From NCBI RefSeq assembly GCF_900880625.1, contig NZ_CAAHFB010000006.1, positions 124,001 to 188,000 of the forward strand: DNA of 64,000 nucleotides, given 5' to 3'. This DNA is from Halorhabdus rudnickae. GTDB lineage: Archaea; Halobacteriota; Halobacteria; Halobacteriales; Haloarculaceae. The position numbers and the translations under genes were made by a program. Positions 9,101 through 60,868 of the stretch are shown here, piece after piece (position 1 is the first letter of the stretch; each line of letters begins with the position of its first letter). Under the pieces are notes generated by a model, which did no database searches, was not told the DNA's origin, and was given only the letters and a program-made list of their open reading frames with translations.

Positions 9101-9161
9101 CGGGGTCCATCAGTCCGAAGCTGATCTTCCCGATCGCCTTGGGTGATTGTCCTGTGCTCAT
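6120..9161 (-). CDS. rpoA1: DNA-directed RNA polymerase subunit A'
   Basis: N-terminal two thirds of the largest polymerase subunit (1013 aa). The catalytic Mg-binding loop [12 protein letters not shown] is at 567-578, with Asp569, Asp571 and Asp573. Zinc sites are visible at Cys62/Cys65/Cys72/His75 ([17 protein letters not shown]), followed by CRECSR and CPYCGAK. The operon order is rpoH-rpoB2-rpoB1-rpoA1-rpoA2-nusA, with one-base gaps or overlaps throughout. Confidence 0.98.
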
Positions 9162-9162
9162 G

Positions 9163-10989
9163 TCAGACTGCGTCCTCCAGTTCGATCCGGGGCGCGATGC
9201 CCAGGGCCTTCATCTCGTCTAAGAGGAGTTTGAACGCGTAGCTCATCTCGACTTCGTGAACGTCGGTCTCCTCCTCGCAGTTCGGACAGTAGACGCGGCG
9301 TTGATCGACGTTCTCGACGGCGGTCATGCCACACTGCCCGCAAACGTTGATCCACTCCTGGTCGGACTCATCGAGCAGGCGCTCTTTGAGGGTAAGTGCG
9401 GCGCCGTGGCCGATGAAGACGTCCCGTTCCATCTCGCCGATCCGGAGGCCACCCTCGCGGGCGCGCCCTTCGGTCGGCTGGCGAGTGAGCACCTGGACTG
9501 GCCCGCGCGAGCGGGCGTGGATCTTGTTCGAGACCATGTGGTAGAGCTTCTGGTAGAAGATGGTCCCGACGAAGATCTCCGCCTCGATCTTCTCGCCCGT
9601 GATCCCCGAGTACATGACCTCCTTGCCCGAGGACTTGAAGCCGTGTTCCTCCAAGGAGTCCCGGAGTTCCTCCTCGTCCTCGCCGGTGAAGGCGGTCCCG
9701 TCGACGCGGCGTCCCTCCAAGGCCCCGACCTTCCCGCCGATCATCTCCAGAATGTGCCCGACTGTCATCCGCGAGGGCAGCGCGTGGGGATTGAGAATGA
9801 GGTCTGGCACGACGCCTTCCTCGGTGAAAGGCATGTCCTCCTGGGGGGCGATGTGGCCGACGACACCCTTCTGGCCGTGTCGTGAAGCGAACTTGTCCCC
9901 GAGTTCGGGGATCCGCTCGTCACGGACTTTGACCTTCGAGAGCTTCGAACCATCCTCGCCCTCCATCAGCGTGACGGTGTCGACGACGCCGCTCTCACCC
10001 GAGCGCATCGTGACACTCGTCTCACGGCGCTTCTGGGGGCTGAGTCCGCCCATGTCGTCCGGTTCCTCGAGGAACCGCGGCGGGCTCGTCTTTCCGAGCA
10101 GGACGGCGTTCTCTCCGACCCGTGTCTCGGGGTTGACGAGGCCGTCCTCGTCGAGATGGGTGTAGGCGTCTTCGCCGCGAGCACCCCGGACCTCGTCGTC
10201 CGGGATCTCGAAGCGGTCCTCCTGACCGCCCGGATACCGGCGTTCCTCGCCCTCGTAGGTCCGGAAGAAGTGCGAACGCGCGAGGGCACGCTCGACTGAC
10301 CCCTCGTTCATGACGAGAGCGTCCTCGATGTTGAACCCCTCGTAGGACATGACCGCGACCGTGAAGTTCTGTGCCGCCGGCCGGTCGTCGTAGCCGATCT
10401 GTTCGGTGGTCTGGGTCTTGACCATCGACAGCTGCGGGTAGTGCAGTAGGTGCTGTCGCGTGTCCGGCCGCACTCGGTAGTTGGCGCTGGGCAGCCCCAG
10501 ACTCTGCTTGATCATCCCCGATCCCATCGTAATGCGCGGACTGGCATTGTGCTCGGGGTAGGGGATCATCCCCGCGCCGATGCCGAAGATGAGCTGCGGG
10601 TCGACTTCGAGGTGGGTATGCTCTTCGGTGAGTTCTTCGTCGTCGACGGCGACGTAGATGTCCTCTTCCTCCTCGGCGTCGATAAACTCGACGTAGCCCC
10701 GATCGACGAGGTCCTCGAAAGCAAGCTCGCCGTCTTTGACGGCCTCGATCTCCTCGTCGGAGACGAGCGATTCACCGTCCCGAACGACCAACAGCGGGCG
10801 ACGCGCCCGCCCGGCGTCGGCGTTGATTATGACCTCGTCGGTGCGGTCCTTCACCGAGACGTTGACCATCTCGCTGACCTCGCCACGACGGCGGGCCTCA
10901 CGGACCTGATCGGCGAGCTGTTCCGGTTCGGGATGGGTCCCGACGAGACTTCCGTTGACGTAGACTTTGGCTTCGCGTCCCTGACTCAT
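9163..10989 (-). CDS. rpoB1: DNA-directed RNA polymerase subunit B'
   Basis: C-terminal half of the second-largest subunit (608 aa), split from B'' as in other haloarchaea. Recognisable segments include [20 protein letters not shown], the hybrid-binding region with [15 protein letters not shown], and the C-terminal clamp zinc ribbon ([11 protein letters not shown], then YCPNCEEE). One base separates it from rpoA1 and one from rpoB2. Confidence 0.97.
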
Positions 10990-21754: not shown

Positions 21755-23476
21755 TTATGAGGTATTGATCATCGAGACGAGGACAATCGTAATCACGTAC
21801 AGTGGGATCGCCGAAAGCAGGGACCGGCCGACGCGATACCCGAGCAACGCTCGATCAAGCCCGTGCCGAAGCATGACCGACAGTGGCACGAGAATGAAAC
21901 AGAGCGTGATAACGAACACGCCGACGACGATACCGAGTTGATCGCTCGGTAACGTCGACGCAGCGGCCTGGGTTTCGGATAGATCGACATCCTGACTGAC
22001 GATGATGTCGGCCAGGCCGACAGTGGCCCCGGCGACCAGTGGGCCGAAATACGAAGCCGTGTGATCGAGCGTCCCGGTGACGTTCGCGAGTTGCCGTTTG
22101 GCCTCGTCGTCGACGTCCTGCAGTTCTTCGAGGTGATCAGCCATGGACACGATGGCCCGACCGGCCGGCTTCCCCTCGCGGGACGCGATCGCGAGCAAGC
22201 CAGCGGTACTGTGGGCCCGCGGGCTCGGGATATCGCGTAAGGCACCGTACTCGCCCATGAACGCCTCTTCGACGCCGACGTGGAGTCGGCGCTGTAAGCC
22301 GGCTGCGCTCTCGAAAACCGCACCGGTCTCCTCGGGAACTCGATCACCTGCCTGCTGGATCACGGACTCGACGGCTTCGCCTTCCGATACTTGCCGTCCA
22401 ACGAGGTACAGCGCGTCGACGAGGTGTTCCTCGACGGCACGGACGTGGTTTCGAACGAGGATGATCGGCCGAAACAGCGCGATCAATACCCCACCCAGAC
22501 CGAATCCAACGCCAGCGAGTACAGCGAGATGAGACGGCCCCCACAGAAGCGTGAGGACGAACGCCGGTGCCCCGACGATCGGCGCCCAGAAGAGACGGAT
22601 CCAGAGGCGGTCCGGCACGTCCGGGTGTTCGCGCGTCACTTTCGGTGGCGGAAAGGCGACGGGGCGACGGACGAGTAGCCAAAGACTTGCGGCGATCAAC
22701 ACGATCGGCAACACCACGTTGTACGTGACGATGAAAAATAAGATCGGGACCGGATAGCCCACGAGCGTCGCGGCGGGGACGAGTGCGACCAGCGCCAACG
22801 GGATCATGACCCCGAACGCGTAGAGTGCCGTCGTCGGGCCGCGTATGCTTGCGGTGAAGTCAGCCATCTGGTTTCGCGTTCCATCGAGGATGGACATCAG
22901 CGTCCGGTCGAGCGTCCGGCGGCGCTCGGCTTCCGGGGCATCCTGTGCCATCACGAGCAAATGCGCCGAGCGACGGACGGCCGGGAACCACTCCGCCCAC
23001 TCCTCGGCAAACGAGATGATGCCGGTCCGTGGCGTCCCCATCGACCGATCGATGTGTGCCGAGAGGTTCTCCGATAAGGGACCATAGCCGGTCTCCGCAG
23101 CGAACCGAACTGCACTCTCGGTCGCCGGCTGGATCTGCATGCGAAGCACCGCCCGGCCGATCAGGTTCGGCACCGATCCGAGGGCCTCGGTCCGTCGGAA
23201 CGCAGCCAGCAGGTTCGGAACGCTGTGTATCGAGTGGATGAGAAGGACCGCGATCGCGACAGTGAGAAACAGCGCCACCGGGAATCCGAGTCCAGTAGCG
23301 AGCAACGGCACAACGAACAGCAAGCTCAAGAGGCCCGCGCCGTATCCGCCGCGAACGACGGTCTCCGGGGCGAGTTCGGTATCGAGAAAGGAGAGTGACT
23401 CCTGCAGTTGCTGACCGACCTCGACCTCGTCGGGATACAATCGCGCAATCGTCCGGAGTGAGCCGACCAGAACCAT
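21755..23476 (-). CDS. pilC: Type IV pilus assembly platform protein PilC (FlaJ/TadC family)
   Basis: 573-aa polytopic membrane protein. Hydrophobic segments group near residues 46-85, 215-275, 290-340 and 495-570, with two cytoplasmic GspF-like domains between them (WAEWFPAVRRSAHLLVMAQD and LYLVGRQVSEGEAVESVIQQ). This duplicated layout is typical of archaeal PilC/ArlJ. It anchors pilins and couples to the PilB ATPase, which lies 6 bp upstream. In Haloferax the pilB3-pilC3 pair is needed for adhesive pili (established knowledge); orthology of this copy is inferred from gene order. Confidence 0.9.
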   Translation of the reverse strand: MVLVGSLRTIARLYPDEVEVGQQLQESLSFLDTELAPETVVRGGYGAGLLSLLFVVPLLATGLGFPVALFLTVAIAVLLIHSIHSVPNLLAAFRRTEALGSVPNLIGRAVLRMQIQPATESAVRFAAETGYGPLSENLSAHIDRSMGTPRTGIISFAEEWAEWFPAVRRSAHLLVMAQDAPEAERRRTLDRTLMSILDGTRNQMADFTASIRGPTTALYAFGVMIPLALVALVPAATLVGYPVPILFFIVTYNVVLPIVLIAASLWLLVRRPVAFPPPKVTREHPDVPDRLWIRLFWAPIVGAPAFVLTLLWGPSHLAVLAGVGFGLGGVLIALFRPIILVRNHVRAVEEHLVDALYLVGRQVSEGEAVESVIQQAGDRVPEETGAVFESAAGLQRRLHVGVEEAFMGEYGALRDIPSPRAHSTAGLLAIASREGKPAGRAIVSMADHLEELQDVDDEAKRQLANVTGTLDHTASYFGPLVAGATVGLADIIVSQDVDLSETQAAASTLPSDQLGIVVGVFVITLCFILVPLSVMLRHGLDRALLGYRVGRSLLSAIPLYVITIVLVSMINTS

Positions 23477-23482
23477 CAGTAC

Positions 23483-25414
23483 TCAACTCCGCTGACGGGC
23501 GTACGCCGTCGCGACCTCGCGAGGATTCGTCCGGCCATCCCCAGCCAGCGATTCGAGTTGGTCCGCCCGCTCGGAGATCGCCTGCCTGATATCCGCGTAC
23601 TCTTCGCCCGGCCCCGTAATATCGTCGACAAATCGACTCTCCCCGCGGTCGATACGCCCTGACGGTCGGGCTTTGTCCTCGTCGATCTCGAAGAGTGGGG
23701 CGAACCACACGTCCTCGCCGTCGTTCATAACTTCCTCGATGCGTGAAACGCGCCGCTTGCGGCCTTCGGGCGTGTCGTAGGCCTGGACCGTGACAACGAG
23801 ATCCGTAACGGCAAACGACGATGGTTCGACGCCCAGATCGGAGACGACCCGTTCGTAGATGTCTTCGGCACCGTCTCCGTGGATCGTCCCGAGGACGGCG
23901 TTGGCGTTCGCCCCCACGCGCATCGCCTCGTAGAGGACGCGCGCCTCCTCGCCGCGGATCTCTCCGACGACGAGCGCACCATCACCGAGTCGAAGAGCAG
24001 TCCGCAACGCTTCCGCAGCGGTGATCTCCGGGCCCTCTCCGCTGCCGGTCCTGAGTGCCTGGACATCTCGCCCGACGCTCTGGAGGGGATCGAGAGGCAA
24101 TTCCGGCGTGTCCTCGATGGCGACCGTTCGCGTTGCCGGCGCGAGTTCGTAAAGCAAGGTGCCGAGCAAGGTCGTCTTTCCCGCGCCACGCGTGCCGGCG
24201 ATCAGCGTCGCGCCGTTGCGTTCGATCGCAATCGAGAGGAAGCCGGCGACAGTGGCCGTCATCGTGCCGTTCGCGACGAGCGCGGGGAGCGTGAACCGGT
24301 CGTCGGCCCGCTCGCGGAACGCGAACGCGACGCCAGCGGACACCGGGTCGGTCACGCCGGCGATCCGGATCCCGGTCCCGTTCTGCAGATCGGCAGTCGC
24401 GTCCACGGTCGGGTTCGCCCGCGAGAATGCCCGTCCGCTCGTCCGACGGACGCGCGAGGCGAGCGCACGCGCCCCCTCGGCCGAGAGATGAATGTTCGTC
24501 TCCATGGTCTCGCCGTCGACGACGACCCGGAGCGGGTTCGACGAGACCGGCGCAGTGACGTAGACGTCGCTGACGCGCGGATCCGAGAAGAAATCCTCGA
24601 GGACGCCGTAGCCGTGCGTGTGTTTCCGGAGGATGCCAGACAGTCGCGGGTCGACAGCTTCGTCTGAAACATGTTCGATAGCACGCGACGCTGCACGCTC
24701 ACCTTCGACGACCCCCTCGGCGATCGCTTCGTAGGCATCGAGGAGAATCTCCCGTTCCTGGCGAGACAACGAAACGTCGATCGAACCGAGGAGGTACAGC
24801 GGAATGCCGGTCTCGCGCTCGTAGATCCGCACGTCGCTTCCGGTCTCCAGCGTTCGAACGTCCGTGAGATGAGGACCGCCACCGACAGACTGATCGAGGA
24901 AATAATACGAGATCGTCATCCCAACCGAGGGAAGCAGACACTCCTCGTAGGATTCGAGGTCCTCGGCGGCCGTCAGTAGGCCGGACTCGACAGCTACGTC
25001 TACAACAGGGCCGACCCGCTCACTGAGATCGTCCACTGCAGCGAGAGGATCCGTCGCTGCCGTCTCGGCCAGTCGCTCGTGACGATCACCCAGCAGTTCG
25101 AGAAAGCGGCCAGCCGCCGACAAGAGGGACACCCCCGCGTCGCTGTACCGGTACGCGAGACCGTGCGACCGGACGCGAATGTTCGTTGCATCTCTATCCT
25201 CTAGCTCGGCGATGACCGTCCGTCGACACTCGGGTTCCGTCCTGAGGTCTCCGTCACAGCCGTCCGCGTCGACCCTGAGTGTCGTCTCGTCGAACGACGT
25301 CTCACAACGACAGCCCCCGCCCTCGTTTCGCGACGGGAGTCGGTCCAGGACGGACTGGGGAGTCAGTGAGAGTACCGCATCCGAGAGTGACGTATCCGTC
25401 GCCTCCTTCGACAT
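23483..25414 (-). CDS. pilB: Type IV pilus assembly ATPase PilB (VirB11/GspE family)
   Basis: 643-aa hexameric secretion ATPase powering pilus assembly. Walker A is GTRGAGKTT with Lys413. An Asp box follows (VAIEDTPELPL), then Walker B-like DGALVVGEIRGEEARVLYEA and the His box LGTIHGDGAEDIYERV. A Cys-rich N-terminal segment (GGGCRCETSF, DGCDG, PECRR) and an insert precede the ATPase core, as in haloarchaeal PilB. pilC follows after 6 bp. The exact pilus type cannot be fixed without the main pilin. Confidence 0.92.
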   Translation of the reverse strand: MSKEATDTSLSDAVLSLTPQSVLDRLPSRNEGGGCRCETSFDETTLRVDADGCDGDLRTEPECRRTVIAELEDRDATNIRVRSHGLAYRYSDAGVSLLSAAGRFLELLGDRHERLAETAATDPLAAVDDLSERVGPVVDVAVESGLLTAAEDLESYEECLLPSVGMTISYYFLDQSVGGGPHLTDVRTLETGSDVRIYERETGIPLYLLGSIDVSLSRQEREILLDAYEAIAEGVVEGERAASRAIEHVSDEAVDPRLSGILRKHTHGYGVLEDFFSDPRVSDVYVTAPVSSNPLRVVVDGETMETNIHLSAEGARALASRVRRTSGRAFSRANPTVDATADLQNGTGIRIAGVTDPVSAGVAFAFRERADDRFTLPALVANGTMTATVAGFLSIAIERNGATLIAGTRGAGKTTLLGTLLYELAPATRTVAIEDTPELPLDPLQSVGRDVQALRTGSGEGPEITAAEALRTALRLGDGALVVGEIRGEEARVLYEAMRVGANANAVLGTIHGDGAEDIYERVVSDLGVEPSSFAVTDLVVTVQAYDTPEGRKRRVSRIEEVMNDGEDVWFAPLFEIDEDKARPSGRIDRGESRFVDDITGPGEEYADIRQAISERADQLESLAGDGRTNPREVATAYARQRS

Positions 25415-25453: not shown

Positions 25454-25930
25454 TCACGGAGCATCGATCTCGTCGAAGCGAACCACCGTAACGACGGGGC
25501 GTCGCCGGGCATCTCTGGTAAGCGTCAGCCGGAGGCGTCGATCCGCTGTACCCGAGAGTTCGACCAGATCGCCGCCGGTCGCGTTCCGTATCGGCACGTC
25601 GATCGTCTCGGTATGCATCGGGCCACCCTCGATCCGAAAGGCCACGACCGAAAGCCGCTCGCCCGTCACTCGGCGCAACTCGAAATGGCTGATCGGCTTC
25701 GTCGTGAGTGAGTCCGCTGGCATCTCGACAGTGACCAGCCGTTGTGCACCTGGATGGCCTTCGGGTGGCAGTTCGTCGTTGCTGATCAAAGAGACTGCGG
25801 CGTCCTCCAAGTCTGTGATGCTTGCCCACACTTCCCGTTCGCTGGCGGCTGTACTGGCGGTTTCCAGCCCCGCAAAGCTCACTCCCAGAATGGCGACCGT
25901 CAGAACGATCGCCACGACGTACCGGATCAC
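25454..25930 (-). CDS. Small membrane-anchored pilus-locus protein (DUF7311-type)
   Basis: 158 aa. An N-terminal membrane helix, MIRYVVAIVLTVAILGVSFA, is followed by an acidic, beta-rich exterior domain. Its ATG overlaps the stop of the coiled-coil gene above (25927-25930, ATGA-type), and pilB follows after 39 bp. Function unknown; conserved association with pilB-pilC in haloarchaea is from memory. Confidence 0.78.
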   Translation of the reverse strand: MIRYVVAIVLTVAILGVSFAGLETASTAASEREVWASITDLEDAAVSLISNDELPPEGHPGAQRLVTVEMPADSLTTKPISHFELRRVTGERLSVVAFRIEGGPMHTETIDVPIRNATGGDLVELSGTADRRLRLTLTRDARRRPVVTVVRFDEIDAP

Positions 25931-26652
25931 GGGACGTGCTGGCGAAGACGCTCCAGTACGCCCTCACCTTCATGGTTTTCATCGCTGTCGCCGGATTCCG
26001 TGCTGGCCAGTATTTCGTCGACCCGCTGTTGGGAGGGCGTCCGATCCGACGAAGTCGTGTCTGTCCCGTCCCCAGTCCCGTCCGGAGCGTCGTCGCCATC
26101 GCTTCCCCCCGCGGCCTCGCTGGAACGGTCGTCAGAGCTGTGGGAAGCCGATCGAAACTGGCCGGGAAAGGACTCACTGTTCCCCGTTGTGGCCGCGTTC
26201 GTCCCATTGTCGTCGTGTCCCGTTCCCGTAGCGTCCGTTCCATTCCCGTTTTTCGCGGGAACTTCGCCCTCGTCAGTGGCGTCGGCGGCAGCGACGGACT
26301 GCTCGACAGCCCGCTGTATCCGTTCAGTAGCCGGGTCGAGATCGCTGACTGACCCCTCCAAGTCAGCAACGCGATCCTCAAGTCGATCGACGGCCGCGAC
26401 CGCGGACAGCGCGTGTCGTTCGACCTCCTCGTTGACCGACTCGACTTCCGAATAGTATCCCCCGATGGACTGGACATCGGCTTCGATCGTCGCGATCCGC
26501 TTTTCGAGCGCTTCGAGACGGTCCTCGATGTCCTCGACGTCCCCGGATAGCGCCAGGACCGCCTGCAGTCGCTCGGCGTCGATGTCGATCTCACCCGTTA
26601 CCGTCCGCTCGACTGCCGATAGTCGTTGTTCGATCCGTTCGATATCGGTCAC
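25927..26652 (-). CDS. Coiled-coil protein of the pilus locus (DUF7310-type)
   Basis: 241 aa. Residues 1-105 form long heptad-rich helices (IERIEQRLSAVERTV, VEDIEDRLEALEKRIATIE, VDRLEDRVADLEGSV). The rest is low complexity, rich in Gly, Asp, Thr and Ser, and probably disordered. There is no membrane segment. It is coupled to the next gene by a 4-nt overlap and lies 31 bp after the frameshifted HerA-like gene. Possibly a cytoplasmic scaffold of the pilus machine; inferred. Confidence 0.75.
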   Translation of the reverse strand: MTDIERIEQRLSAVERTVTGEIDIDAERLQAVLALSGDVEDIEDRLEALEKRIATIEADVQSIGGYYSEVESVNEEVERHALSAVAAVDRLEDRVADLEGSVSDLDPATERIQRAVEQSVAAADATDEGEVPAKNGNGTDATGTGHDDNGTNAATTGNSESFPGQFRSASHSSDDRSSEAAGGSDGDDAPDGTGDGTDTTSSDRTPSQQRVDEILASTESGDSDENHEGEGVLERLRQHVP

Positions 26653-26683
26653 GCCGTATTTCGCCCCGTTCCCCTATTTAAAC

Positions 26684-27746
26684 TCACCCGTCATTCCCGG
26701 AACCCATCTCACTGGCTCGGGGAGAGTCCCCGCCATGTGGGGTGTCACGCTGCCGTATCTGTGCGGCGTGGACAGTCTCGGTGGCGTCATCAATGACGAC
26801 GACTTCGCCGGTTTCGGTCGGCAGTTGCTCTTCGAGAGACTCCTGCATGTAGGTCGGCTGGGCGGCCTCCAGTGCTTGGAGGTCCTGTTCGGAAGTGAGT
26901 CGGTGGGTGATCAAGATATCCGACTGGGAGACTGCCACCTCTGGGACGATCGCAGGGCGCTGGGTGGCAAGGACGACGACTAATCCCGGGTGCGCGCCCG
27001 CGCGTAAGAAGCCGTTCTACTGCTGGCCGGGCGACCCCGTCGAAGAACGCGTGGGCCTCGTCGATCAGCAGCCAGGGGAGTCGTTCGACCGTGCGATCGA
27101 TCCGCGCACGATAGAGCGCCTCGCCGACGCCACGCACGACCGCGTTCATCGGCGCCGTATCCATCCCCGAGACGTCGACGACGGTGATCTCCGGGCTGGC
27201 GAGTGCCGCCGAATCGAGGCCGTCGGGGTCGAAGACATCCCAGGATTCGGCCAGATTGAGGTGGTTGCTCGCGGCGCGCTTGTCAGTCTGTGGGGCGTCG
27301 GTGCCGGCCACGTGCTCACGCATGCCGTCGAGCGTATCGGTCTCGCTGGCGGCCTGCCAAACGAGCCCGCCGGCACCGCTCTCGGGCGACAGCGACAAGA
27401 GTTCACACCACGATCGCGGGTCTAGCGACGTCGCGACCACGCATGGCTGATCGAACACCGTCGTCGGGACGGGATCGTCGTTGCTGCCATCGCCGATAGT
27501 GTCGAAGACGCCCATCGGGTCGACGATCACGGGCGCGACGGCGTTCGCGCGGGCGAGGTCCTCGGCGAGGACGCCCAGAGTGTAGGACTTGCCGTACCCG
27601 CGCTTGCCGACGATCAGGACGGCATGGGGACCGTCCAGATCGAGATATAGTTTCGCGCCTCTGCTGCCGTCGAGTGCCCGATAAGACCCGAGCGTCGCGG
27701 TCGGTCCCCTCTCCACTGCCTCACCGCGTCCGATGACGAACGTCAC
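26684..27746 (-). pseudogene. HerA/DUF87-type ATPase, frameshifted
   Basis: RecA-like ATPase. From a GTG at 27746 the frame reads VTFVIGRGEAVERGPTATLG, Walker A GKRGYGKSYT with Lys53, Walker B LPWLLIDEAHAFF and RLLTRGRAPG. There, at about 26983-26987, the frame shifts by one base. The other frame continues LVVVLATQRPAIVPEVAVSQ and SDILITHRLTSEQDLQALEA to the natural end at 26684. Without the shift the protein would be about 353 aa and complete. An extra A or T in CCCGGGATTAG explains it. It may be a true mutation, a sequencing error or, less likely, programmed frameshifting. First gene of the pilus operon on this strand; it may drive DNA or protein movement, but the role is unknown. Confidence 0.8.
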
Positions 27747-27843: not shown

Positions 27844-28341
27844 ATGCGCGGTCCACCAATCCCGAACGGGTCGGATCGATCGTTCAAAGAAGACGAACGT
27901 GCCATCGAGGGCCTACCGATACGGCTCGTCATCGCACTGGTCGTCGGCGTCGCCGCACTCGGCATTATGATGCAAGTGCTGGGGACGTTCGACTTCGGGG
28001 CGGATAAAGAAGTGACTGTAGAATATGAGAATCCTGTAGTGAGTGAAAATGGTGATGATTTAATCATTAGTGTTGTAGACAGCAAAGGGGAAGCAGTGAA
28101 AAATTCCTACGTAGTGGTGAAAGGAGACACGTTGAGCACAGAAGGCGTAGTGAGCGCCCATACTGGAGAAAACGATCACACGGTTCAGATTGCAATTGGC
28201 GGTGGAGATGATGAGATCACACCCCAATGGCGTTCGAACCAGGATTCAGGTGAGCTCACCGTGACGGTAAAACCACCACAAGATGGAAACTATGTTGATG
28301 ATCGAGGAAATCCAGATCCAACAATCATAAGACAAAATTGA
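27844..28341 (+). CDS. Small membrane-anchored protein with exterior beta domain, copy 1
   Basis: 165 aa: a short cytoplasmic start, one membrane helix (LPIRLVIALVVGVAALGIMM, residues 24-43) and an exterior domain that reads like a carboxypeptidase-regulatory or Ig-like beta sandwich (VTVEYENPVV, LIISVVDSKGEAV, YVVVKGDTLS). It lies head-to-head with the HerA-pilus operon and just before a GLUG surface protein. Bases 27858-27908 are identical to 30293-30343 in copy 2. After about 28010 the codons become AT-rich, unlike the first third, so the gene is a mosaic. Possible roles are a minor pilin-like subunit or an anchor for the following adhesin; not demonstrated. Confidence 0.8.
   Translation: MRGPPIPNGSDRSFKEDERAIEGLPIRLVIALVVGVAALGIMMQVLGTFDFGADKEVTVEYENPVVSENGDDLIISVVDSKGEAVKNSYVVVKGDTLSTEGVVSAHTGENDHTVQIAIGGGDDEITPQWRSNQDSGELTVTVKPPQDGNYVDDRGNPDPTIIRQN
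27858..27908 (+). repeat. 51-bp exact direct repeat, copy A
   Basis: Identical to 30293-30343, starting AATCCCGAACGGG and ending GTGCCATCGA. It codes for the pre-membrane segment of the small anchored protein. Similarity continues with scattered changes for about 100 bp. It marks a recent duplication or gene conversion and is a possible recombination substrate. Confidence 0.9.
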
Positions 28342-28413
28342 AAATGGAATACAACCATCGATAGAATGGTTGATATTGATTACTAATACAATTTGGTATA
28401 ATATCATCTAAAT

Positions 28414-30183
28414 ATGTATATAAATACAGACAACCACAATAAGATAGAAGTAGCACCCTTTTTTGAAAGGTCCACAAAAATATTTATATTCATATCATTA
28501 TCCTTAGTGTGTGTATCAACTTTTGTTGTATCACCAGTAGTTGCAGGGTCAGATAATCTACAAAATATGAATGGTACCGGAACCGCCGAAGATCCCTACG
28601 TCATCACGAATGCGGAAGAGTTGCAAGCGATAAGTGAAGATATAAACGCCTATTATGCCCTCGGAAACGACATCGACGCGACAGAGACATCAAATTGGAA
28701 CGCGGGTGCTGGATTCGAACCGATTGGTCTCAGTCATGGATCAATTGAGAGAGGTCCTGCCTTCAAAGGCGTCTTTAACGGACGTGGCTACACCATAGAG
28801 GGGCTGACCATTCGTAGACCAAAATGGAGTGGGATGGCCATGTTTGCAGAATCAGAAGGATTAGTAAAGAATGTCCATATATCTAGGGCGAAAATTGAGG
28901 GTCATGATCCAGCTGTCCTTGTAAGCCAAAATAGCGAAAAAGGAGTGATAGAATCGGCCTCAGCAACAGGAAGTGTGACCACTGATGACTCTCTAGCTGG
29001 GGGGCTCGTTGGGATTAACGGAGGTAAAATCAATGAATCGTGGGCAGATGTTGATGTATCCGGTGCAGAATATTATACTGGTGGATTGGTTGGTCGTAGC
29101 TGGTATAATGGACAAATAAGTAACTCGTATGCAATCGGAGATGTTGTAGGTGAGAATCGTGCTGGGGGAATAATAGGAGGGAATGCAAACTCGATGCAGC
29201 GCGTGTATGCAACTGGAAGAGTGGACGGAAGCACTACAGGAGGACTTGCTGAAAAGAACAATGGTCTTATCGTCGACTCGTACTGGAATATCGAAGCTAC
29301 GGGACAACGAAACGGCGTTGGTGAGGGTGGCGAAGCCGGAACCGGCCTATCGACGGAGGAGATGACTGGGACGGACGTGTACTCCTCGATGGACGCACTT
29401 GTCTCCGATGAGGCCTGGACGGCAACGGACGGTTATCCAATTCTCCAGCGAGAAGTTGAGGGAGTTTCTCTTTCTACCGATAATGAGATCGTAATCGCCG
29501 GAAATGAGACAGACGCAAATGTCTCACTTAGTCTGATCGGCGATCGTACCGAAACCGCAACTACTGTCGCCGAATACGCGAGCAATAACCCCGAAATCGC
29601 GACGATCAGCAATGGTGTCGTGACTGGTCACCAACCAGGTGAAGTCGAACTATCTTCTACGCTCGCCGGCAATACCGGAATGACCGACGTGACTGTCATT
29701 GCTAACGAGGGCATCTCCGCCATTGATGCCGAAGTCGACGCAACCGATGTGACAGCCGGCGACACCGTCACGATCACAGCAACGTTCCGCAACGTCGACG
29801 AGAACGCGACTTACCTCCATTCCGACCTACTCGTCAACGGCGAAGCAGTGGTCACAGAGAATGTCACGGTAGTCGGCAACGCCGATAGCAAGCACACCTT
29901 CGAATGGACGGCCGAGAGTGCAGGCACATACGACCTTGCGATTGACGGAATCGATGCTGGCTCGGTCGACGTTTCACCGAAGTCAACCACTGAACAACCA
30001 GCAGACGACAATACTGGAGAGAATGCTGACGGATCGGGTGATGGTGAAGCAGGCGACAACGCACCGTCAGGACAATCCAGTTCGAATGGCGATGACTCCG
30101 GTGGACTACCAGTAGTCCCACTGGCTCTCGGCGGTGTCGCTGTGGCTGCTGGCGGCGGTATCGTTCTCGGACGACGCCTGTAA
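28414..30183 (+). CDS. Secreted GLUG-repeat surface protein, copy 1
   Basis: 589 aa. Signal peptide at about 22-45 (KIFIFISLSLVCVSTFVVSP). Then an N-terminal domain with GTAEDPYVITNAEEL, GLUG-type repeats at about 95-290 (GGLVGINGGKINESWAD, GGLVGRSWYNGQISNSYAIG, GGLAEKNNGLIVDSYW), a BIG2-like domain (about 320-430) and a CARDB-like domain (about 430-530). An acidic Gly/Ser/Asp linker and a C-terminal membrane helix with RRL end (about 562-589) complete it. Such proteins are cell-surface adhesins or biofilm factors. Codons are AT-rich up to about 29270 and GC-rich afterwards. It lies 72 bp after the small anchored gene, probably in one operon. Confidence 0.85.
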   Translation: MYINTDNHNKIEVAPFFERSTKIFIFISLSLVCVSTFVVSPVVAGSDNLQNMNGTGTAEDPYVITNAEELQAISEDINAYYALGNDIDATETSNWNAGAGFEPIGLSHGSIERGPAFKGVFNGRGYTIEGLTIRRPKWSGMAMFAESEGLVKNVHISRAKIEGHDPAVLVSQNSEKGVIESASATGSVTTDDSLAGGLVGINGGKINESWADVDVSGAEYYTGGLVGRSWYNGQISNSYAIGDVVGENRAGGIIGGNANSMQRVYATGRVDGSTTGGLAEKNNGLIVDSYWNIEATGQRNGVGEGGEAGTGLSTEEMTGTDVYSSMDALVSDEAWTATDGYPILQREVEGVSLSTDNEIVIAGNETDANVSLSLIGDRTETATTVAEYASNNPEIATISNGVVTGHQPGEVELSSTLAGNTGMTDVTVIANEGISAIDAEVDATDVTAGDTVTITATFRNVDENATYLHSDLLVNGEAVVTENVTVVGNADSKHTFEWTAESAGTYDLAIDGIDAGSVDVSPKSTTEQPADDNTGENADGSGDGEAGDNAPSGQSSSNGDDSGGLPVVPLALGGVAVAAGGGIVLGRRL

Positions 30184-30279: not shown

Positions 30280-30782
30280 ATGCTCACGAGAGAATCCCGA
30301 ACGGGTCGGATCGATCGTTCAAAGAAGACGAACGTGCCATCGAAGGGCTACCCATACGGCTGGTCATCGCACTGGTCGTCGGCGTCGCGGCCTTGGGGAT
30401 CATGATGCAGATCCTGGGGACGTTCGATTTTGGGGCGGATCAGGAGGTGGACATCGAGTTCAACAACGCAGTCGTCCAGGACGACGGCTCAAGCAAGACG
30501 ATCACCGTGGTCGACGACAAGACCGGCGACCCAATCCCCGAAGCCGACGTGATCGTCCGCGGTGACACGCTTAGTATCGCGGAACCGTACACCGCCACCA
30601 CGAATAGCGACGGGAAGATATCATTCACCGTCGGTGACGGCAGTGGCGACGTCGCCGCGGGGTGGCGCACGACCCAGGAGACCGGCAAGATTCGCTTCGA
30701 AGTCGTTCCGCCAGCGGACTCGCCGTACACGGACGACCAGGCGAACGACAAGATGACCGTCATCCGGTCGGGCAGCCCCTGA
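30280..30782 (+). pseudogene. Small membrane-anchored protein, copy 2, frameshifted at its start
   Basis: The body (membrane helix IRLVIALVVGVAALGIMMQ and beta domain with TVVDDKTGDPIPEADVIVRG) is intact and close to copy 1. However, the ATG at 30280 that fits the promoter is out of frame: reading must shift by one base between about 30283 and 30293 to reach the conserved IPNGSDRSFKEDERAIEGLP segment. The only in-frame alternative I see is a TTG at 30393 inside the membrane helix, which would destroy the anchor. Either a real start-region mutation (an off state) or a sequencing error. Codons are GC-rich throughout, unlike copy 1. The GLUG protein starts 55 bp later. Confidence 0.75.
30293..30343 (+). 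repeat. 51-bp exact direct repeat, copy B
   Basis: Partner of 27858-27908, at the same place in the second copy of the small anchored gene and 2435 bp downstream. Recombination between the two would delete or exchange the GLUG gene lying between them. Confidence 0.9.
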
Positions 30783-30837: not shown

Positions 30838-32604
30838 ATGAAAATCAATCAGGACCGAGCTTCGAAGCTGGTCGTGCTCGCAGTGTGCGTCGCCGCACTC
30901 GGCCTAGTCGCGCTCGGCGGCGCTGCCGGCAGCGCAGGTGCAGCCGGTGGGCCGCCAGCCCAGCTCGACGGCACCGGCACCGCGGCCGATCCGTACGTAA
31001 TCACGAACGTCTCGGGCCTCCAAGGGATCGACGACGACCTGGACTCCCACTACATACTCGGGGCCGACATCGACGCGAGCGACGCCACCAGAGCCGAGGC
31101 CATCGGGGAGTTCGAACCAATCGGCGGACCCGAAGACCCCTTCCAGGGGAGCTTCGACGGCCAGGGACATGTAGTCACCGGGCTGAGTATCACGCGATCC
31201 AATTCGGACGGTATAGGCGTCTTCAGCCGGTTGAAGGGGACGATCCGGAACGTCCACTTTGCGGACGTGTCCGTCCACGCCCAGGGCCAATCCGGCACCG
31301 TCGTCGGGACGAACGACGGCACGGTTCGCCGCGTGTCGGCGACCGGGGAGATGCAAATCGAGACGCGCGGGAACGTCGGCGGAAGCGCTTCGACGGTCGG
31401 CGGCCTCGTAGGTCGCCAGACCGCCGACGGGGAACTCCTTGAGTCGTGGGCCGACGTCGACATCCAGTCGCCCGGGCAGTTGATCGGCGGCGTCGCCGGC
31501 CGGAACGACGGCCTAGTCGCCAACAGCTACGCGCTCGGGTCCATCGAGAGCGCCACCGCCGGCGGACTTGTCGGGTACAACACCGGGACGACACGTGCAG
31601 GCTACGCTGCCGGGGCCATCACCACCGTGGAAAACGACGGGGTGCGGTACGCCGGCGGACTCGCGGCCAGGAACACCGCCACTTTGACCGGCGTCTACTG
31701 GGACCAGGCGGCCACCGGACAACCCGCCGGCGTCGGCGACGGGCCGGCGGCCGGGACGGCCTTGCGGACGGCCGACATGACGGGTGCTCAGGCAGCGACG
31801 GAAATGCCAGAGCTGGACCTCGAGGAGACGTGGGTGCTGACGGACGACTACCCGATCCTTCAGTGGGAGGTCCAAGCCGTGCACGTCGACATAAGCCGAC
31901 AGATAATCTCGGCGGGCAACAATACAACAGCCACGATCAGTGCCTCACGAGTAAGCCCAGATATGGTCGGATTGACCAGCACTGTTACCGCCCAAAGCGA
32001 GAATCCAGACATCGCGACCGTCACGGGCGACAATACAATCGTCGCCGAGAGTCCCGGACAGGCAACCATCTCCGCCAGCGCAGCCGGCGAAACCGGTTCG
32101 ACAGATATCATCGTCATCGCTGCTGAAGGAATCTCCGCTATCGACGCGCATACTAACTCACCTGACGTGATGGCCGGCGAGACCGTCACCGTCACGGGGA
32201 CGTTCCGCAACGTCGACAAGAACACAACGTATCACCACGCCGACTTGCTCGTCGACGGCGAAGCAGTGGCTACCGAGAACGTGACCGTCGATGGCGATTC
32301 GAACGAAACCCACACCTTCGAGTGGACACCAGAGAGTGCAGGCACGTACGCCCTCTCGATCGACGGCATCGACACCGGTTCGGTCGAGGTTTCGCCACAG
32401 CCGAGCACCGAGTCAATAGCTGACGACAGCGGTAAGCGGAACGGAGATGGTGACTCGAATCAGGCCGGTGATGGCGACCAGACCGACAACAGCGGCCCGG
32501 CTACACGCGACGACAGCGGGTTGGGAGGACTGCCGGTCCCGCTGGTCGGCGGTGTCATAGTCGTGGCTATCGGGGGTGGCGTGCTGCTCGGACGACGACT
32601 GTGA
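30838..32604 (+). CDS. Secreted GLUG-repeat surface protein, copy 2
   Basis: 588 aa with the same plan as the 28414 gene: signal peptide (VVLAVCVAALGLVALGGAAG, about 12-31), GTAADPYVITNVSGL, GLUG repeats (GGLVGRQTADGELLESWADV, GGVAGRNDGLVANSYALG, GGLVGYNTGTTRAGYA), BIG2-like and CARDB-like domains, acidic linker and C-terminal membrane helix ending GRRL. Unlike copy 1 it is GC-rich from end to end. The C-terminal 200 residues of both copies are most alike (TFRNVD, HTFEWT, ESAGTY, IDGID). Likely a surface adhesin anchored in the membrane through its C-terminus. Confidence 0.86.
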   Translation: MKINQDRASKLVVLAVCVAALGLVALGGAAGSAGAAGGPPAQLDGTGTAADPYVITNVSGLQGIDDDLDSHYILGADIDASDATRAEAIGEFEPIGGPEDPFQGSFDGQGHVVTGLSITRSNSDGIGVFSRLKGTIRNVHFADVSVHAQGQSGTVVGTNDGTVRRVSATGEMQIETRGNVGGSASTVGGLVGRQTADGELLESWADVDIQSPGQLIGGVAGRNDGLVANSYALGSIESATAGGLVGYNTGTTRAGYAAGAITTVENDGVRYAGGLAARNTATLTGVYWDQAATGQPAGVGDGPAAGTALRTADMTGAQAATEMPELDLEETWVLTDDYPILQWEVQAVHVDISRQIISAGNNTTATISASRVSPDMVGLTSTVTAQSENPDIATVTGDNTIVAESPGQATISASAAGETGSTDIIVIAAEGISAIDAHTNSPDVMAGETVTVTGTFRNVDKNTTYHHADLLVDGEAVATENVTVDGDSNETHTFEWTPESAGTYALSIDGIDTGSVEVSPQPSTESIADDSGKRNGDGDSNQAGDGDQTDNSGPATRDDSGLGGLPVPLVGGVIVVAIGGGVLLGRRL

Positions 32605-32675: not shown

Positions 32676-33320
32676 GTGTCGCGGAAAACACTCGAACGGA
32701 TCACGTCGTCCGGGACCGACGACCGGGGGCTGTGGACGCCGTCGCTCCCACAGGCGATCACGCTAGTACTACTCGTGACGATGGGATGGACCGCAGTATA
32801 CGTCTCGCTGGCAACGACGAATCCTCTCGGCGTGAACGAAGAGGTAACGACCGAGTTCGACGACTCGGTCCTCGACGACGATGGGACAGTAGTCGTCACC
32901 GTCGTCAGCGAACAGAACGGCGACCCTGTCGAAGGGGCGACGGTGGTTCCAACGAGCGAATCGGTCCGACTCGATTCGACGCCGGAGCGAACGGCCGACG
33001 AGGAGGGGAAGGTCCGCTTCGAGTTCGGCAATACAGGAGACGACATCGGGATCGATTGGTCGGTTGGCGAACAGATAGCAACAGTCACCTTCGAGATCGA
33101 TCACCCGGACGAAGGATACGTCGATCGACAGTCGAATCCCGATTTGACTATCAGACGGTCCATGACAGGATGGAGTGGCCCAACGAGCGAAGCGAGGAAA
33201 GGGAAAGAATTCCTCGGGATGGGAGCGCGGGATCGATCCGTCTCGAAGGAGCGGATAGCGATGCACTTCCGGTTCTTGGGTGGCGATCGGACGGGATTCG
33301 GTGCGGTTTCGTTCCAGTGA
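32676..33320 (+). CDS. Small membrane-anchored protein, copy 3, with odd C-terminal extension
   Basis: 214 aa from GTG at 32676, the start fixed by the TTTAAGT box. It has the same plan as copies 1 and 2: N-terminal helix (QAITLVLLVTMGWTAVYVSL), the EVTTEFDDSVLDDDG strand and a beta domain (VTVVSEQNGDPVEGATVVPT), ending in the family-like DRQSNPDLTIRRS. The frame then runs on for 52 codons of basic, low-acid sequence (starting MTGWSGPTSEARKGKEF) that looks like translated non-coding DNA, including the haloarchaeal filler AACGAGCGAAGCGAGG. This suggests loss of the original stop codon near 33165. No GLUG gene follows; the RCK-like gene starts 12 bp later. Confidence 0.75.
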   Translation: MSRKTLERITSSGTDDRGLWTPSLPQAITLVLLVTMGWTAVYVSLATTNPLGVNEEVTTEFDDSVLDDDGTVVVTVVSEQNGDPVEGATVVPTSESVRLDSTPERTADEEGKVRFEFGNTGDDIGIDWSVGEQIATVTFEIDHPDEGYVDRQSNPDLTIRRSMTGWSGPTSEARKGKEFLGMGARDRSVSKERIAMHFRFLGGDRTGFGAVSFQ

Positions 33321-33332
33321 GGTGCCACGTAT

Positions 33333-34574
33333 ATGGACTCAGTGTACGTCGAAGTGATTCTGGGGGTTTCCCTGGGGGGAATCGTCGGCGTCGTGCCGGC
33401 AGTGGCTGCCGGGATAGCCGGTGGGATCGTGCCGTCGCTCGCCGAGTATCGATTCATCCGTGGAACCCTCGCGGTTGCATCGCTACTGATCGCAGGAGTC
33501 GTGGCGACATCGATCGGTGGGGTCGCAGTACAACTCAAGCACGTGCCGCGGATGGTGACCGGAGGGAGCGTCGTCGTATTGCTGACGGTATTCGGCTTCG
33601 AACAGGGGAGACGCGTCGGGTCGACCCTGCGACGTGACGGATCAGAACCGATCGAACGGGGCCGCTCACTGGCCGACGTGGCCGTCGACGCCATCGACGC
33701 CTCGGGACAGGTCACGATCCGGCCGCAGGGAGCGATCCGGACCGTCCCCGGCTATCCCGAACTACCCGGTGATCTCCAGAGCGAGATCGCGGCGGAGCGA
33801 TGGCGTCTACCCGCCGATCTACCGCTCTCGGAGCTGGAAAGGCGGATCGAACGACAGCTTCTCCTAAAACACGACCTGGAAGCGGCCGAGGTGACCGTGA
33901 ACCCGCGGGGGACCGCGACCGTCGCCGGGGCGCCACCGGCATCTGGAATCGCACGGACAGTGCCGGCGGGGCAGCGAGCCGTGTCGGTCCAGACGACAGT
34001 CCCCGACGGGGTCGAACCGGGAGATGAGATCGTCGTCGAAACGGAGAAGGGAACGATCGACGGGTTCGTTCTCAGTACAGATCCGATCGATGTCCGGGCG
34101 AAGGCTGACGGAGATGGTCGCCGCATTTCGAGCGGCGAGACCGGAATCCCCCGGAAAGCAGGAACAGTGGCCGGTGACGGAACAGAACAAGCAGGCGGGC
34201 GTTCTCGCGTGACCGTCGCCGTTCCGACAGATGACATCGACGCCGTACTCGAAGCGGATCGGGTGACAGTAGCCGTTCGTTCCCGTGATATGCGACCGGA
34301 TTTCCGGGCAATTTCGCTGTTCGATCGGGCGGGGAAAGCGGTTCGTGTGACGTCCCTCGACGACGATGTCATAGACAGAATCGAGAACGCACAGACGAGA
34401 GTCGATATCTTTGCCGCCCGTTCGCCGTCGAAGCGATCGAGTGGAGAGTGGACGATCGACCCGTCGCCCGAGGATCTCGCCTCCGGGTGGCAGGTGGTCC
34501 TCGTCGGTGACGAGACTGGACTCACGGAGCTCGTAGATGCCACTGCGAGCGGCGGGACGGTGGTCGAGACATGA
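33333..34574 (+). CDS. Membrane protein with RCK/TrkA-C-like domains, first of a pair
   Basis: 413 aa. Three hydrophobic segments at the N-terminus (about 5-27, 28-58 and 66-88), then a cytoplasmic region with two modules. DLPLSELERRIERQLLLKHD precedes a beta-rich domain, and the C-terminus has WTIDPSPEDLASGWQVVLVG, the pattern of the TrkA-C (RCK_C) ligand-binding fold. Haloarchaeal relatives are often annotated as potassium-transporter TrkA-like, but no ion-pore sequence is present, so it is more likely a ligand-sensing membrane protein. It overlaps the next gene by 4 nt (ATGA), and the two products are related. Confidence 0.72.
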   Translation: MDSVYVEVILGVSLGGIVGVVPAVAAGIAGGIVPSLAEYRFIRGTLAVASLLIAGVVATSIGGVAVQLKHVPRMVTGGSVVVLLTVFGFEQGRRVGSTLRRDGSEPIERGRSLADVAVDAIDASGQVTIRPQGAIRTVPGYPELPGDLQSEIAAERWRLPADLPLSELERRIERQLLLKHDLEAAEVTVNPRGTATVAGAPPASGIARTVPAGQRAVSVQTTVPDGVEPGDEIVVETEKGTIDGFVLSTDPIDVRAKADGDGRRISSGETGIPRKAGTVAGDGTEQAGGRSRVTVAVPTDDIDAVLEADRVTVAVRSRDMRPDFRAISLFDRAGKAVRVTSLDDDVIDRIENAQTRVDIFAARSPSKRSSGEWTIDPSPEDLASGWQVVLVGDETGLTELVDATASGGTVVET

Positions 34575-35725
34575 CGATACCACTGCTTCAACTCGGGACC
34601 GTCGGGTTACTCAGAGATGCGTCCGTCCAGCTCGTCGGACTCGGTCTCGCGGCAGCGGTCGTCGCCACGGGGTGGACGGTCCTCTATCGTCGTCGAACCA
34701 CCCGACCACTCCCGCCGGGGTCGGGCGCCTTCCTCGGTGTGTCGACAGTCGCAGCCTGGATGTTCGTCGAGATAGTGCTGCGTGGATCGTTGGTCGGATC
34801 ACTACCGTACGAACACCATGGAAGCGCGATCTACGGGGTCGCCGGACTAAGTCTCGGAGGCGTCGTCGGGGCCGTTGGGAGACCGCTCGGTGACCGGATC
34901 GCGTGTGTGGTCTACGGTATCGAGCGCCTGGTGGCCGAGCGGGACGTGGCGAGACTGTTGCGATCGGCGCGAGTACTCACCGTAGTCACAGTATCGGATA
35001 GTGTTTCGGACACCGAGGGATACAGCCCCGCGAGCAACAAGACGAAACGCGCACTCGCGGGAGCACAGTTCAGACTCCCGAGTCGACTCTCCGAAGACGA
35101 ACTGATCGATCGCCTCGAAACGCGAATCGTTGCGGACTACGACGTCGATCACGCGTCCGTAACGTTCGATGACGGTGCCGTCGCGTCGCTTTCCGTTGGA
35201 AGGCGCCGTTCCAGCCTGGGACCGACCCTGCCACCGGATACCGTGGCTGTCGGGATACGGGCCGATCCAGCCGGAGACGCGTCGCCGGGCGATGCAGTAG
35301 AGATCTGGGAAACAGGCCCGGACGCAACGAGACTCGTGGCCCGAGGACGTCTCCGAGCCAGTAGTGAGGAGCGAGCAACCGTCGTCGTCGACCGTGACGA
35401 TGCAGCCAGATTCGACCCTACCACACGATACCGGCTGGTGACGCCGTCGGAAACCCCGTCAGATCACTACCGGCTCACCTCGTTGCTCCGTGATGTCGAG
35501 GAGACCACGATCGCCGTTTCGGTGGCCGATGACGACGACCTCCTCGGGGAGTTCGTCGGCTGGCTCCCGGGGAGCGCACTCGCGATCGAACGCGACGACG
35601 AGGTTCTGGTACTGCCGGACGATCGCGTCACGCTCCAGAGCGACGACATCGTCTTCCTCGTCGGACTTCCGTCGGCCTTTGCGGAACGTCTGAACATCAG
35701 CGAGGCCAGAACTGTAGCGGTTTGA
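34571..35725 (+). CDS. Membrane protein with RCK/TrkA-C-like domains, second of a pair
   Basis: 384 aa, paralogue of the preceding gene and coupled to it. Hydrophobic segments lie at about 15-38, 50-75 and 85-105. The soluble part has LPSRLSEDELIDRLETRIVA (like the first gene's LSELERRIERQL module), a beta domain with FDPTTRYRLVTPSETPSD, and a C-terminal RCK_C-like fold (SALAIERDDEVLVLPDDRVT then LQSDDIVFLVG). The two probably form a heteromer. No transporter gene adjoins, so the partner is unknown. Confidence 0.72.
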   Translation: MTIPLLQLGTVGLLRDASVQLVGLGLAAAVVATGWTVLYRRRTTRPLPPGSGAFLGVSTVAAWMFVEIVLRGSLVGSLPYEHHGSAIYGVAGLSLGGVVGAVGRPLGDRIACVVYGIERLVAERDVARLLRSARVLTVVTVSDSVSDTEGYSPASNKTKRALAGAQFRLPSRLSEDELIDRLETRIVADYDVDHASVTFDDGAVASLSVGRRRSSLGPTLPPDTVAVGIRADPAGDASPGDAVEIWETGPDATRLVARGRLRASSEERATVVVDRDDAARFDPTTRYRLVTPSETPSDHYRLTSLLRDVEETTIAVSVADDDDLLGEFVGWLPGSALAIERDDEVLVLPDDRVTLQSDDIVFLVGLPSAFAERLNISEARTVAV

Positions 35726-42983: not shown

Positions 42984-43095
42984 AAATGCCGCTACGTTAA
43001 CGGCCCGGATATGCGTCCGAGGCTTGTAACATAACCAGATCTTTTCTGTCTGAATTATCCACAATCACTATCTCTATCAATGGAAACTAGAACAC

Positions 43096-43983
43096 ATGGG
43101 ATACTCTGGAAAATTTGAGGGGTTGGTGCCGAGGGAGAAGCGAACAGTCTGGAGATATGTGGACTATTCTAAATTAATGTGGATATTAAGCCAAGGGAAG
43201 CTACATTTTCATAGGGGCGATCTCTTTGACGACCCCTTCGAAGGAACACTACCAGAGATTGTAGCTAAAGCCCGGAAACAAGCATATATAGAGGATTACG
43301 ACTCTCCGGAAACGATGGAAGAGATCCATGCTGAAACAACTAAGCAGATCCGCCAAGATGTTTTCTTAAATTGCTGGCACGTTAATGGACATGAATCGGC
43401 GGGTATGTGGGAGATATACAGCAATACAGACAAGTCTATTGTGATTAAATCAACGATTGGTGATCTGATATCTGCTTTAGAACAGACTAGCAAGCGGATT
43501 TTGATGGGTGAAGTTACATATTTGGACTTCGATAGTACGGGTCGAAAACAAGAAAGAAAGCTCGAAGAATTCAGCAAGCAAATCCCGGACTCGGCATCAA
43601 CTCCTGCGGAGCCATTCTTGTTAAAACGTAACAGTTTTCGCCATGAACCAGAATTTCGTCTGTTGATCATTGATCCGACTCTGTTGAGTGAACGTGAGTA
43701 TGAAGATCTGAAATACAATATAGAATTAGATGGGGTCAACCGAAAAATCCCACTCATGATATCAAATGGTCACGAGGAGGGATTTTATTATGCTCTTAGA
43801 GAAAGGGATACAACAGGTTTCAATATAGATATCAATACCAGTGAGTTGATAAACGAGATACGGATCTCTCCTGACGCTCCTGCATGGTTTAAAGATGCGG
43901 TGGAGGCCACAGTAACAGCGTCGTCTGATTTAGGGAAAGAACAGGTGAATTTCTCTGAACTTCGAGGAGAGTCAATTTACTGA
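43096..43983 (+). CDS. DUF2971-type protein, AT-rich, probably acquired
   Basis: 295 aa. Features are VWRYVDYSKLMWILSQGKLH, FHRGDLFDDPFEGT, NCWHVNGHESAGMWEIYSN, TDKSIVIKST and LLKRNSFRHEPEFRLLIID, the conserved pattern of DUF2971 proteins, whose activity is unknown and which are often found in mobile and defence islands. Codons are AT-rich and the protein has far fewer acidic residues than its neighbours, so it was probably transferred from a non-halophile or a virus. It lies between the decayed hicAB and tRNA-Ile. Confidence 0.78.
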   Translation: MGYSGKFEGLVPREKRTVWRYVDYSKLMWILSQGKLHFHRGDLFDDPFEGTLPEIVAKARKQAYIEDYDSPETMEEIHAETTKQIRQDVFLNCWHVNGHESAGMWEIYSNTDKSIVIKSTIGDLISALEQTSKRILMGEVTYLDFDSTGRKQERKLEEFSKQIPDSASTPAEPFLLKRNSFRHEPEFRLLIIDPTLLSEREYEDLKYNIELDGVNRKIPLMISNGHEEGFYYALRERDTTGFNIDINTSELINEIRISPDAPAWFKDAVEATVTASSDLGKEQVNFSELRGESIY

Positions 43984-44349
43984 ATGCTTGCCACTACTTC
44001 AAATATTCCCTGCGGTGTATTTTGAAGAAGTGGCCCTAGACACACTCCTAAGAGAGAACCAAACGCGAGCGTCGCCACTATCTGGGGATCGGGACGTTCC
44101 CGGCCCTCGGGCGGCTACCTGCTACGGGCGTGAGGCATTGACGCGGTTCCGGTCCTGAAAGCGAATGCTAGACGGACAATAATGGATTCAGAAATCAGTA
44201 CCCGTTTCGAGCATACGCGCGAGCGAAGCGAGCGCGTTTCACTGCGAGCGGACCAACGGCCCGCGAGCAGGTGTTTTTGGTCCAGATTTTTGCAAGGAGC
44301 GGTTCGCGAGCGTAGCGAGCGAACCCTCCGCAGTAAAAAGGTGGTATAG
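43984..44349. other. Non-coding stretch between the DUF2971 gene and tRNA-Ile
   Basis: No gene seen on either strand. It contains haloarchaeal intergenic filler: GCGAGCGAAGCGAGCGCG (44219-44237) and GCGAGCGTAGCGAGCGAACC (44308-44327), each a near palindrome, flanking GTGTTTTTGGTCCAGATTTT (44271-44290). It borders the 3' end of tRNA-Ile, an expected integration site. Confidence 0.6.
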
Positions 44350-59711: not shown

Positions 59712-60069
59712 CGGTTTCGGCCTTGAGACGCCATCCCGGTACGGGAGTGCCGGACACGACCCGAGCTTGTTCACGTTCAGAAAACAGTATCCCCGTTTTA
59801 CAAGTACCGGCCACTAACGGTGGCATGGGTCGACACACTGACCCAGAACCGCTCGTCGCGACTGTCAGAGGCACGACGAATATCCCCCCGGCTTCGACAC
59901 TAAATCCCACCTCTCGTCGCCGCTCCACCTTTCTTTACCCAGGTCCCGAGTGGCGGCCTGTACGGACTTCTGTTCTGTCGCTGGCCGGTCCCGCCTGTCG
60001 CGTCGCCCACATACCGCCAAGTAGCTGCTAGGACACCTACTCACGTTCTGCTGTGGGATCGCTTCACCG

Positions 60070-60850: not shown

Positions 60851-60868
60851 TGAATGGTTCACCCAGAC

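Follow-up and report, generated by a model that had tools for sequence, protein, structure and literature searches.

The exposed parts of two adjacent surface-protein genes beside a pilus-type machine in Halorhabdus rudnickae probably constitute an allelic head cassette that is exchanged among strains through homologous recombination within its conserved ends. The window, i.e., the whole stretch of DNA analyzed here, comprises 64,000 nucleotides (contig NZ_CAAHFB010000006.1). The cassette in it would begin immediately after the membrane helix of a DUF7382 protein and stop where the beta-solenoid head of an anchored GLUG protein ends, and would be replaced as a unit over evolutionary time between cells having the conserved ends in common. 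Divergence patterns in Halosimplex and Haloarcula and a tree conflict in Halosimplex fit block replacement at these boundaries. This evidence for exchange comes from pairs of relatives, with one genome per species.

Organization of the Locus

The DUF7382–GLUG gene pair is divergent from a HerA-like ATPase gene, beyond which lie the DUF7310, DUF7311, PilB and PilC-like genes (Table 1). The same neighbors flank the pair in other haloarchaea: the PilB-type ATPase is 62–68% identical in relatives at the same position, and the PilC-like protein, for which a Pfam search gave no match, has a homolog 57–63% identical beside PilB. Orthologs of the HerA-like gene are 60–70% identical. In the window, this gene is split by a 1-base frameshift near 26979–27010, giving two tblastn pieces in different frames, each of which matches intact orthologs; the frameshift may reflect a pseudogene or a sequencing error.

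Table 1. Genes and gene parts of the locus, in window positions
Feature	Position	Strand	Basis
PilC-like membrane protein of the pilus/secretion machine	21755..23476	-	named by context and conservation
PilB-type ATPase (T2SSE, PF00437)	23483..25414	-	E 8.8e-21
DUF7311 and DUF7310 genes, between PilB and the HerA-like gene	25454..26652	-	
HerA-like (DUF87) ATPase gene, conserved left flank	26683..27746	-	Pfam DUF87
DUF7382 copy 1, GC-rich 5' end: start and membrane helix; conserved left arm, holds the 51-bp match	27844..28009	+	
DUF7382 copy 1, AT-rich part: exposed beta-sandwich	28010..28341	+	GC profile, Pfam PF24107, model
AT-rich intergenic spacer, GC 0.25	28342..28413	+	
GLUG copy 1: signal peptide plus AT-rich head (beta-solenoid by prediction, ending near residue 291)	28414..29286	+	Pfam PF07581, model, GC3
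GLUG copy 1, conserved right arm: linker, Ig-like stalk and C-terminal anchor	29287..30183	+	model, stalk conservation in relatives
DUF7382 copy 2, GC-rich, open frame without in-frame start codon	30261..30782	+	
GLUG copy 2, GC-rich, intact, own start	30838..32604	+	
Third DUF7382-like gene, diverged, 25% identical to copy 1, under the Pfam cut-off	32676..33320	+	
Two membrane/TrkA-C-like genes, downstream of the pair in many relatives too	33333..35725	+	

A second copy of the pair follows the first. Neither of the nearest ATG codons of DUF7382 copy 2 (30272 and 30280) is in the conserved reading frame, a frameshift which may be a sequencing error. Copies 1 and 2 are homologous throughout, with amino-acid identities of 46% for GLUG and 54% for DUF7382, and the AT-rich interior of copy 1 is therefore not an unrelated insert; the idea of two unrelated interiors is ruled out. 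The 5' end of DUF7382 is the most similar piece between the two copies of the window. The 51-bp exact match reported in the first-pass annotation lies there, ahead of the AT-rich part (27858–27908 = 30293–30343); 16–17 codons are identical, and the remainder of the 50 compared carry 12 synonymous and 2 non-synonymous codon differences. This tract suggests recent conversion or duplication between the copies, a single tract being weak evidence. As part of the explanation preferred here, copy 2 is likely a GC-rich tandem paralog that has recently shared the 5' end of its DUF7382 gene with copy 1.

Composition and Boundaries of the AT-rich Block

The region 28010–29275 has a GC content of 0.434, compared with 0.617 for the whole window, and is the GC minimum of the window (all 1266-bp stretches, step 100 bp). 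Its left edge is abrupt, falling from 0.64 (27901–28000) to 0.38 (28001–28100) in adjacent 100-bp bins. The earlier description of an AT-rich interior between GC-rich ends is thus borne out, as is that of copy 2 as GC-rich (GC 0.62 and 0.65; GC3 0.85 and 0.78). The accompanying statement that GC-rich coding resumes after 29275 holds in part: GC recovers, but GC3 reaches 0.58 in the copy 1 stalk compared with 0.72 in the copy 2 stalk.

A two-change-point fit to the third codon positions of copy 1 gains 21.4 lnL units, whereas the maximum gain in 20 codon shuffles is 9.4 lnL units. The fitted edges lie 32 residues past the Leu of the LPIR motif and at about GLUG residue 286–287, and GC3 before, inside and after them is 0.72, 0.36 and 0.56, respectively. 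The start of the block nearly coincides with the first beta strand of the DUF7382 model (residue 56 versus 55) and its end with that of the predicted solenoid (about GLUG residue 287 versus the strand at 290–292), indicating that the block edges are domain edges: the left one falls behind the DUF7382 membrane helix and the right one at the end of the GLUG beta-solenoid.

Elsewhere in the window, a second AT-rich island is present at 43000–44000 (GC 0.42–0.43), over a 295-aa ORF at 43096–43983. Another AT-rich stretch with few ORFs (60000–60500, GC 0.36) precedes a 658-aa coiled-coil ORF at 60854–62830, which is SMC/Rad50-like by eye.

Predicted Structures of the DUF7382 and GLUG Proteins

Against a curated cut-off of 27.4 bits for PF24107 (DUF7382), copies 1 and 2 and the third copy score 31.0, 28.9 and 25.6 bits, respectively. 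For PF07581 (GLUG), copy 1 scores 39.4 bits and copy 2 scores 18.3 bits, which is under the cut-off of 20.5 although the protein is homologous. The DUF7382 model (mean pLDDT 87) has a single hydrophobic helix at residues 24–48 right after the AIEG motif, followed by a beta-sandwich whose first strand begins at residue 55. The protein is thus predicted to have an archaeal-pilin layout, with a helix and a beta domain encoded at a PilB/PilC locus. The best matches in a fold search with this model were generic Ig-like domains only.

The model of GLUG copy 1 has a probable signal peptide and a head built from short, regular strands (residues ~120–292, mostly pLDDT >90), as well as Ig-like strands at 348–521 and a low-confidence C-terminal anchor. 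The head is read as a predicted beta-solenoid. Among the Foldseek matches of this model are surface-protein Ig/Big repeats and structures of bacterial IgA1 proteases, the latter in agreement with M26 N-terminal profile matches in six relatives. A PGF-CTERM sorting signal, as in archaeosortase substrates, is present in 9 of the 14 aligned relatives; copy 1 itself is without a PGF-CTERM match and has a sub-threshold GVDTG_CTERM match only. The architecture and the pilus context suggest that the GLUG and DUF7382 heads might act as adhesive or recognition surfaces.

The AT-rich State in Other Haloarchaea

A scan with the HerA-like protein yielded 80 named loci, to which whole-genome searches added more; genes were placed by tblastn. 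The same GC valley over the same gene parts is found in three species of the genus of the window and in a Halapricum. In the wider set, most GLUG-bearing loci of Haloarculaceae and Natrialbaceae genera have low GC3 in the DUF domain and the head, whereas in loci without GLUG at the same site the DUF domains are GC-rich, except in the AT-rich Haloquadratum. GC3 is lower in the head than in the stalk in all 25 loci compared (by 0.29 on average); heads in Halosimplex and a few others are nearly GC-rich, as exceptions to the low values. Head GC3 correlates with the GC3 of HerA as a proxy of the host (Spearman rho 0.75, p 1.5e-5, uncorrected for kinship). Fitted left edges lie 23–32 residues past the LPIR leucine in 7 of the 16 loci fitted (in L063–L065, left edges are to be read about two residues lower and 5'-end identities are set aside), and fitted right edges lie at the equivalent of GLUG residues 271–330 in 11 of the 16, with other breaks in the remainder.

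AT-richness is not a property of the GLUG domain as such, a possibility ruled out by a neighboring GLUG paralog in Halosimplex (GC3 0.83–1.0) and by other GLUG genes, which are GC-rich. The presence of GLUG varies at the fixed site within a single genus: the locus of Natronorubrum bangense (L093) yielded no GLUG gene, and DUF7382 is directly followed by the downstream gene, whereas in two other Natronorubrum species (L109 and L115) GLUG lies between DUF7382 and the same downstream gene.

Divergence of Heads and Flanks in Related Genomes

Several lines of evidence from pairs of relatives point to block replacement. In a Halosimplex pair (L067 and H. pelagicum L147), flanks within ~2.3 kb upstream are 88–100% identical. 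Identity breaks at +100 bp from the LPIR codon, which corresponds to 28010 in the window, falls to 44–73% across almost the entire head (with individual bins at up to 85%) and returns to 83–94% in the stalk, being mostly >90% at the far end. A Haloarcula pair (L084/L172) has the same identity profile; in the two pairs jointly, flanks are mostly 83–100% and heads largely 43–73% identical. The values of dS for HerA, DUF 5' end, DUF domain and head are 0.16, 0.10, 0.97 and 0.93 in Halosimplex, and 0.29, 0.24, 1.27 and 1.50 in Haloarcula, i.e., head dS is 5–6-fold that of the flank. By contrast, in a Halapricum control pair (L066/L168) of similar flank divergence, the AT-rich heads are 95% identical and the corresponding dS values are 0.11, 0.13, 0.16 and 0.11. 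AT-richness alone is therefore not the cause of fast change, and at comparable flank age the head is either the same allele or quite a different one. Stalk dS (0.41–0.68) is raised relative to HerA (0.16–0.29), indicating that the right edge is gradual.

In Halosimplex, the HerA and head trees are in conflict, and each rejects the pairing found in the other (AU p 0.0016 and 0.0011, for clades picked after seeing the trees); the HerA flank itself may have recombined. In Halopiger, the HerA tree does not significantly reject the head grouping (AU p 0.124). Heads mostly group by genus, suggesting that exchange occurs mainly among close relatives. In four Halosimplex genomes, the head of the neighboring GLUG paralog has a dS of 0.37–0.60, nearer to that of its flank, compared with 0.76–1.38 for the DUF-linked head, indicating that variability belongs to the site rather than to the GLUG domain.

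Within genomes, stalks are homogenized and heads are not. L179 has tandem GLUG genes in reverse orientation (5400–7692 and 7788–10083) behind one DUF7382, with stalks 91% and heads 52% identical. In Halopiger djelfimassiliensis (L180, L181), two GLUG genes ~700 kb apart have stalks 91% and heads 54% identical, and within the stalks their DNA is identical over at least 200 bp, up to an assembly gap in each copy. The view of the first-pass annotation that the exposed part is replaced through conserved flanks is accordingly upheld in relatives by the identity breaks, the dS excess and the tree conflict, but its derivation from composition in the window is not.

Alternative Explanations and Proposed Mechanism

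A recent import of the AT-rich block into copy 1 from a virus, a plasmid or an AT-rich haloarchaeon would account for the sharp GC edges and the GC-rich copy 2, but is very unlikely and already largely refuted. The first-pass annotation had inferred a recent swap from composition and had named a shared mosaic in orthologs as the finding that would show an old state; orthologous loci in other species, genera and families do carry this block at matching positions, so that it is an old state here. Also, the heads look resident rather than freshly imported, as their GC3 tracks that of the host. No match to an AT-rich viral, phage or plasmid donor was found in the search that had been proposed for such a donor, and no donor allele was found. 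Programmed antigenic variation within one lineage, with copy 2 or other copies serving as silent donors for copy 1, is extremely unlikely. It would be favored by the missing in-frame start of DUF7382 copy 2, the 51-bp identical tract at the 5' end and the second GLUG copies sharing stalks in some genomes. However, a search for silent heads in the genome found these two GLUG copies and no further match, most loci have a single such copy, and copy 2 has an intact GLUG gene with its own start and a head too distant (46% identity between the GLUG proteins) to be the source of the copy 1 head. A search for an invertible arrangement found one weak inverted pair (26 nt, 77%) inside copy 2 only and no flanking inverted repeats, and no recombinase for such variation was found; the likening of the locus to antigenic variation thus does not stand in its programmed form.

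Fast evolution in place, by diversifying selection on exposed domains and possibly a locally AT-biased mutation rate without replacement, is rather unlikely. The grouping of heads by genus and the AT-shifted heads in all compared loci agree with it, and the intermediate head dS of a Natrialba pair, moderately raised over its flank (0.64 versus 0.16), could represent in-place acceleration. Selection at the protein level, however, does not raise dS, and a higher mutation rate would be expected in every lineage, yet Halapricum head dS equals that of the flank; this control likewise weakens hypermutation as the sole cause. The conflict between HerA and head trees and the much lower divergence of the adjacent GLUG paralog also argue against evolution in place.

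In the preferred explanation, a replaced head cassette, HerA and the DUF7382 5' end would serve as the left arm and the Ig-like stalk as the right arm for intermolecular recombination, which might follow cell contact or fusion; the diversity could be favored by viruses, partners or substrates. In Haloferax volcanii, intermolecular gene conversion is very efficient, with tracts often >4 kb, and works between genes of different species (PMC8223754), and by analogy conversion of this type is a plausible route for cassette replacement. AT-richness is probably a by-product: a hypervariable block would seldom meet a matching partner and would escape GC-favoring gene conversion. Head GC3 lies at a constant offset from a host-tracking baseline, which fits this idea. 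The dependence of head GC3 on the host makes a donor pool that is always AT-rich a poorer fit. The direction of conversion in Haloferax, however, did not depend on GC content (PMC8223754), which counts against the idea of an escape from GC-favoring conversion.

Relation to Known Systems and Significance

Bacterial flagellin fliC has conserved ends and a variable exposed middle that is replaced by recombination in the ends, and polymorphic surface genes in bacteria have low GC. The present locus resembles fliC in its conserved ends and variable exposed middle, and relatives exhibit the identity breaks, the dS jump and the conflict between flank and interior trees; it differs in that the block spans two genes and a spacer.

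In Thermococcales, VARTIG is a secreted Ig-domain protein with one hypervariable domain, whose variation is attributed to recombination between strains and species (Makarova et al., 2021; PMC8416519). Both cases concern an archaeal surface protein with a hypervariable domain attributed to recombination. In VARTIG, the variable part is the C-terminal Ig domain and the genes downstream are shuffled, whereas here the N-terminal GLUG solenoid and the neighboring pilin-like domain vary as a block, the C-terminal stalk is conserved, and the haloarchaeal locus, with its AT-rich block, keeps a constant gene order beside PilB/PilC. Judging from sequences and models, the locus would not be classed with VARTIG, which is defined as a large Ig protein with hypervariability in its C-terminal Ig domain. 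Finer breakpoints are visible here than can be placed in the VARTIG paper (PMC8416519). In Haloquadratum walsbyi, surface genes of a cell-wall island are diversified by homologous recombination (PMC4535781); that island is large and multi-genic, whereas the present locus has a defined cassette of ~1.3–1.7 kb with edges at domain boundaries. No paper about DUF7382 and no description of this locus turned up in the literature library searched.

In the Ups pili of Sulfolobales, species-specific recognition, which precedes DNA exchange, is determined by a poorly conserved region of the type IV pilin (van Wolferen et al., 2020; PMC7064770). The proteins are different from those here, and recognition is established for Ups, whereas here it is suggested by architecture and context. 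It is conceivable, but improbable, that PilB/PilC, the HerA-like ATPase, the variable pilin-like protein and the variable GLUG adhesin form a haloarchaeal partner-recognition or mating apparatus like Ups/Ced, in which the head would decide the partners for fusion or DNA exchange and would be spread by that exchange.

Overall, the locus represents a defined and widespread hypervariable surface locus for haloarchaea, at a fixed site beside a pilus machine. As the cassette crosses a gene boundary, the exposed parts of two proteins would change together, which suggests that the DUF7382 and GLUG proteins work as a matched pair. The locus makes selection for archaeal surface diversity, whether by viruses, partners or substrates, testable. 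With a head GC3 that is lower than stalk GC3 in every compared locus and yet tracks the host, it also offers a natural test of why polymorphic surface loci tend to be AT-rich.
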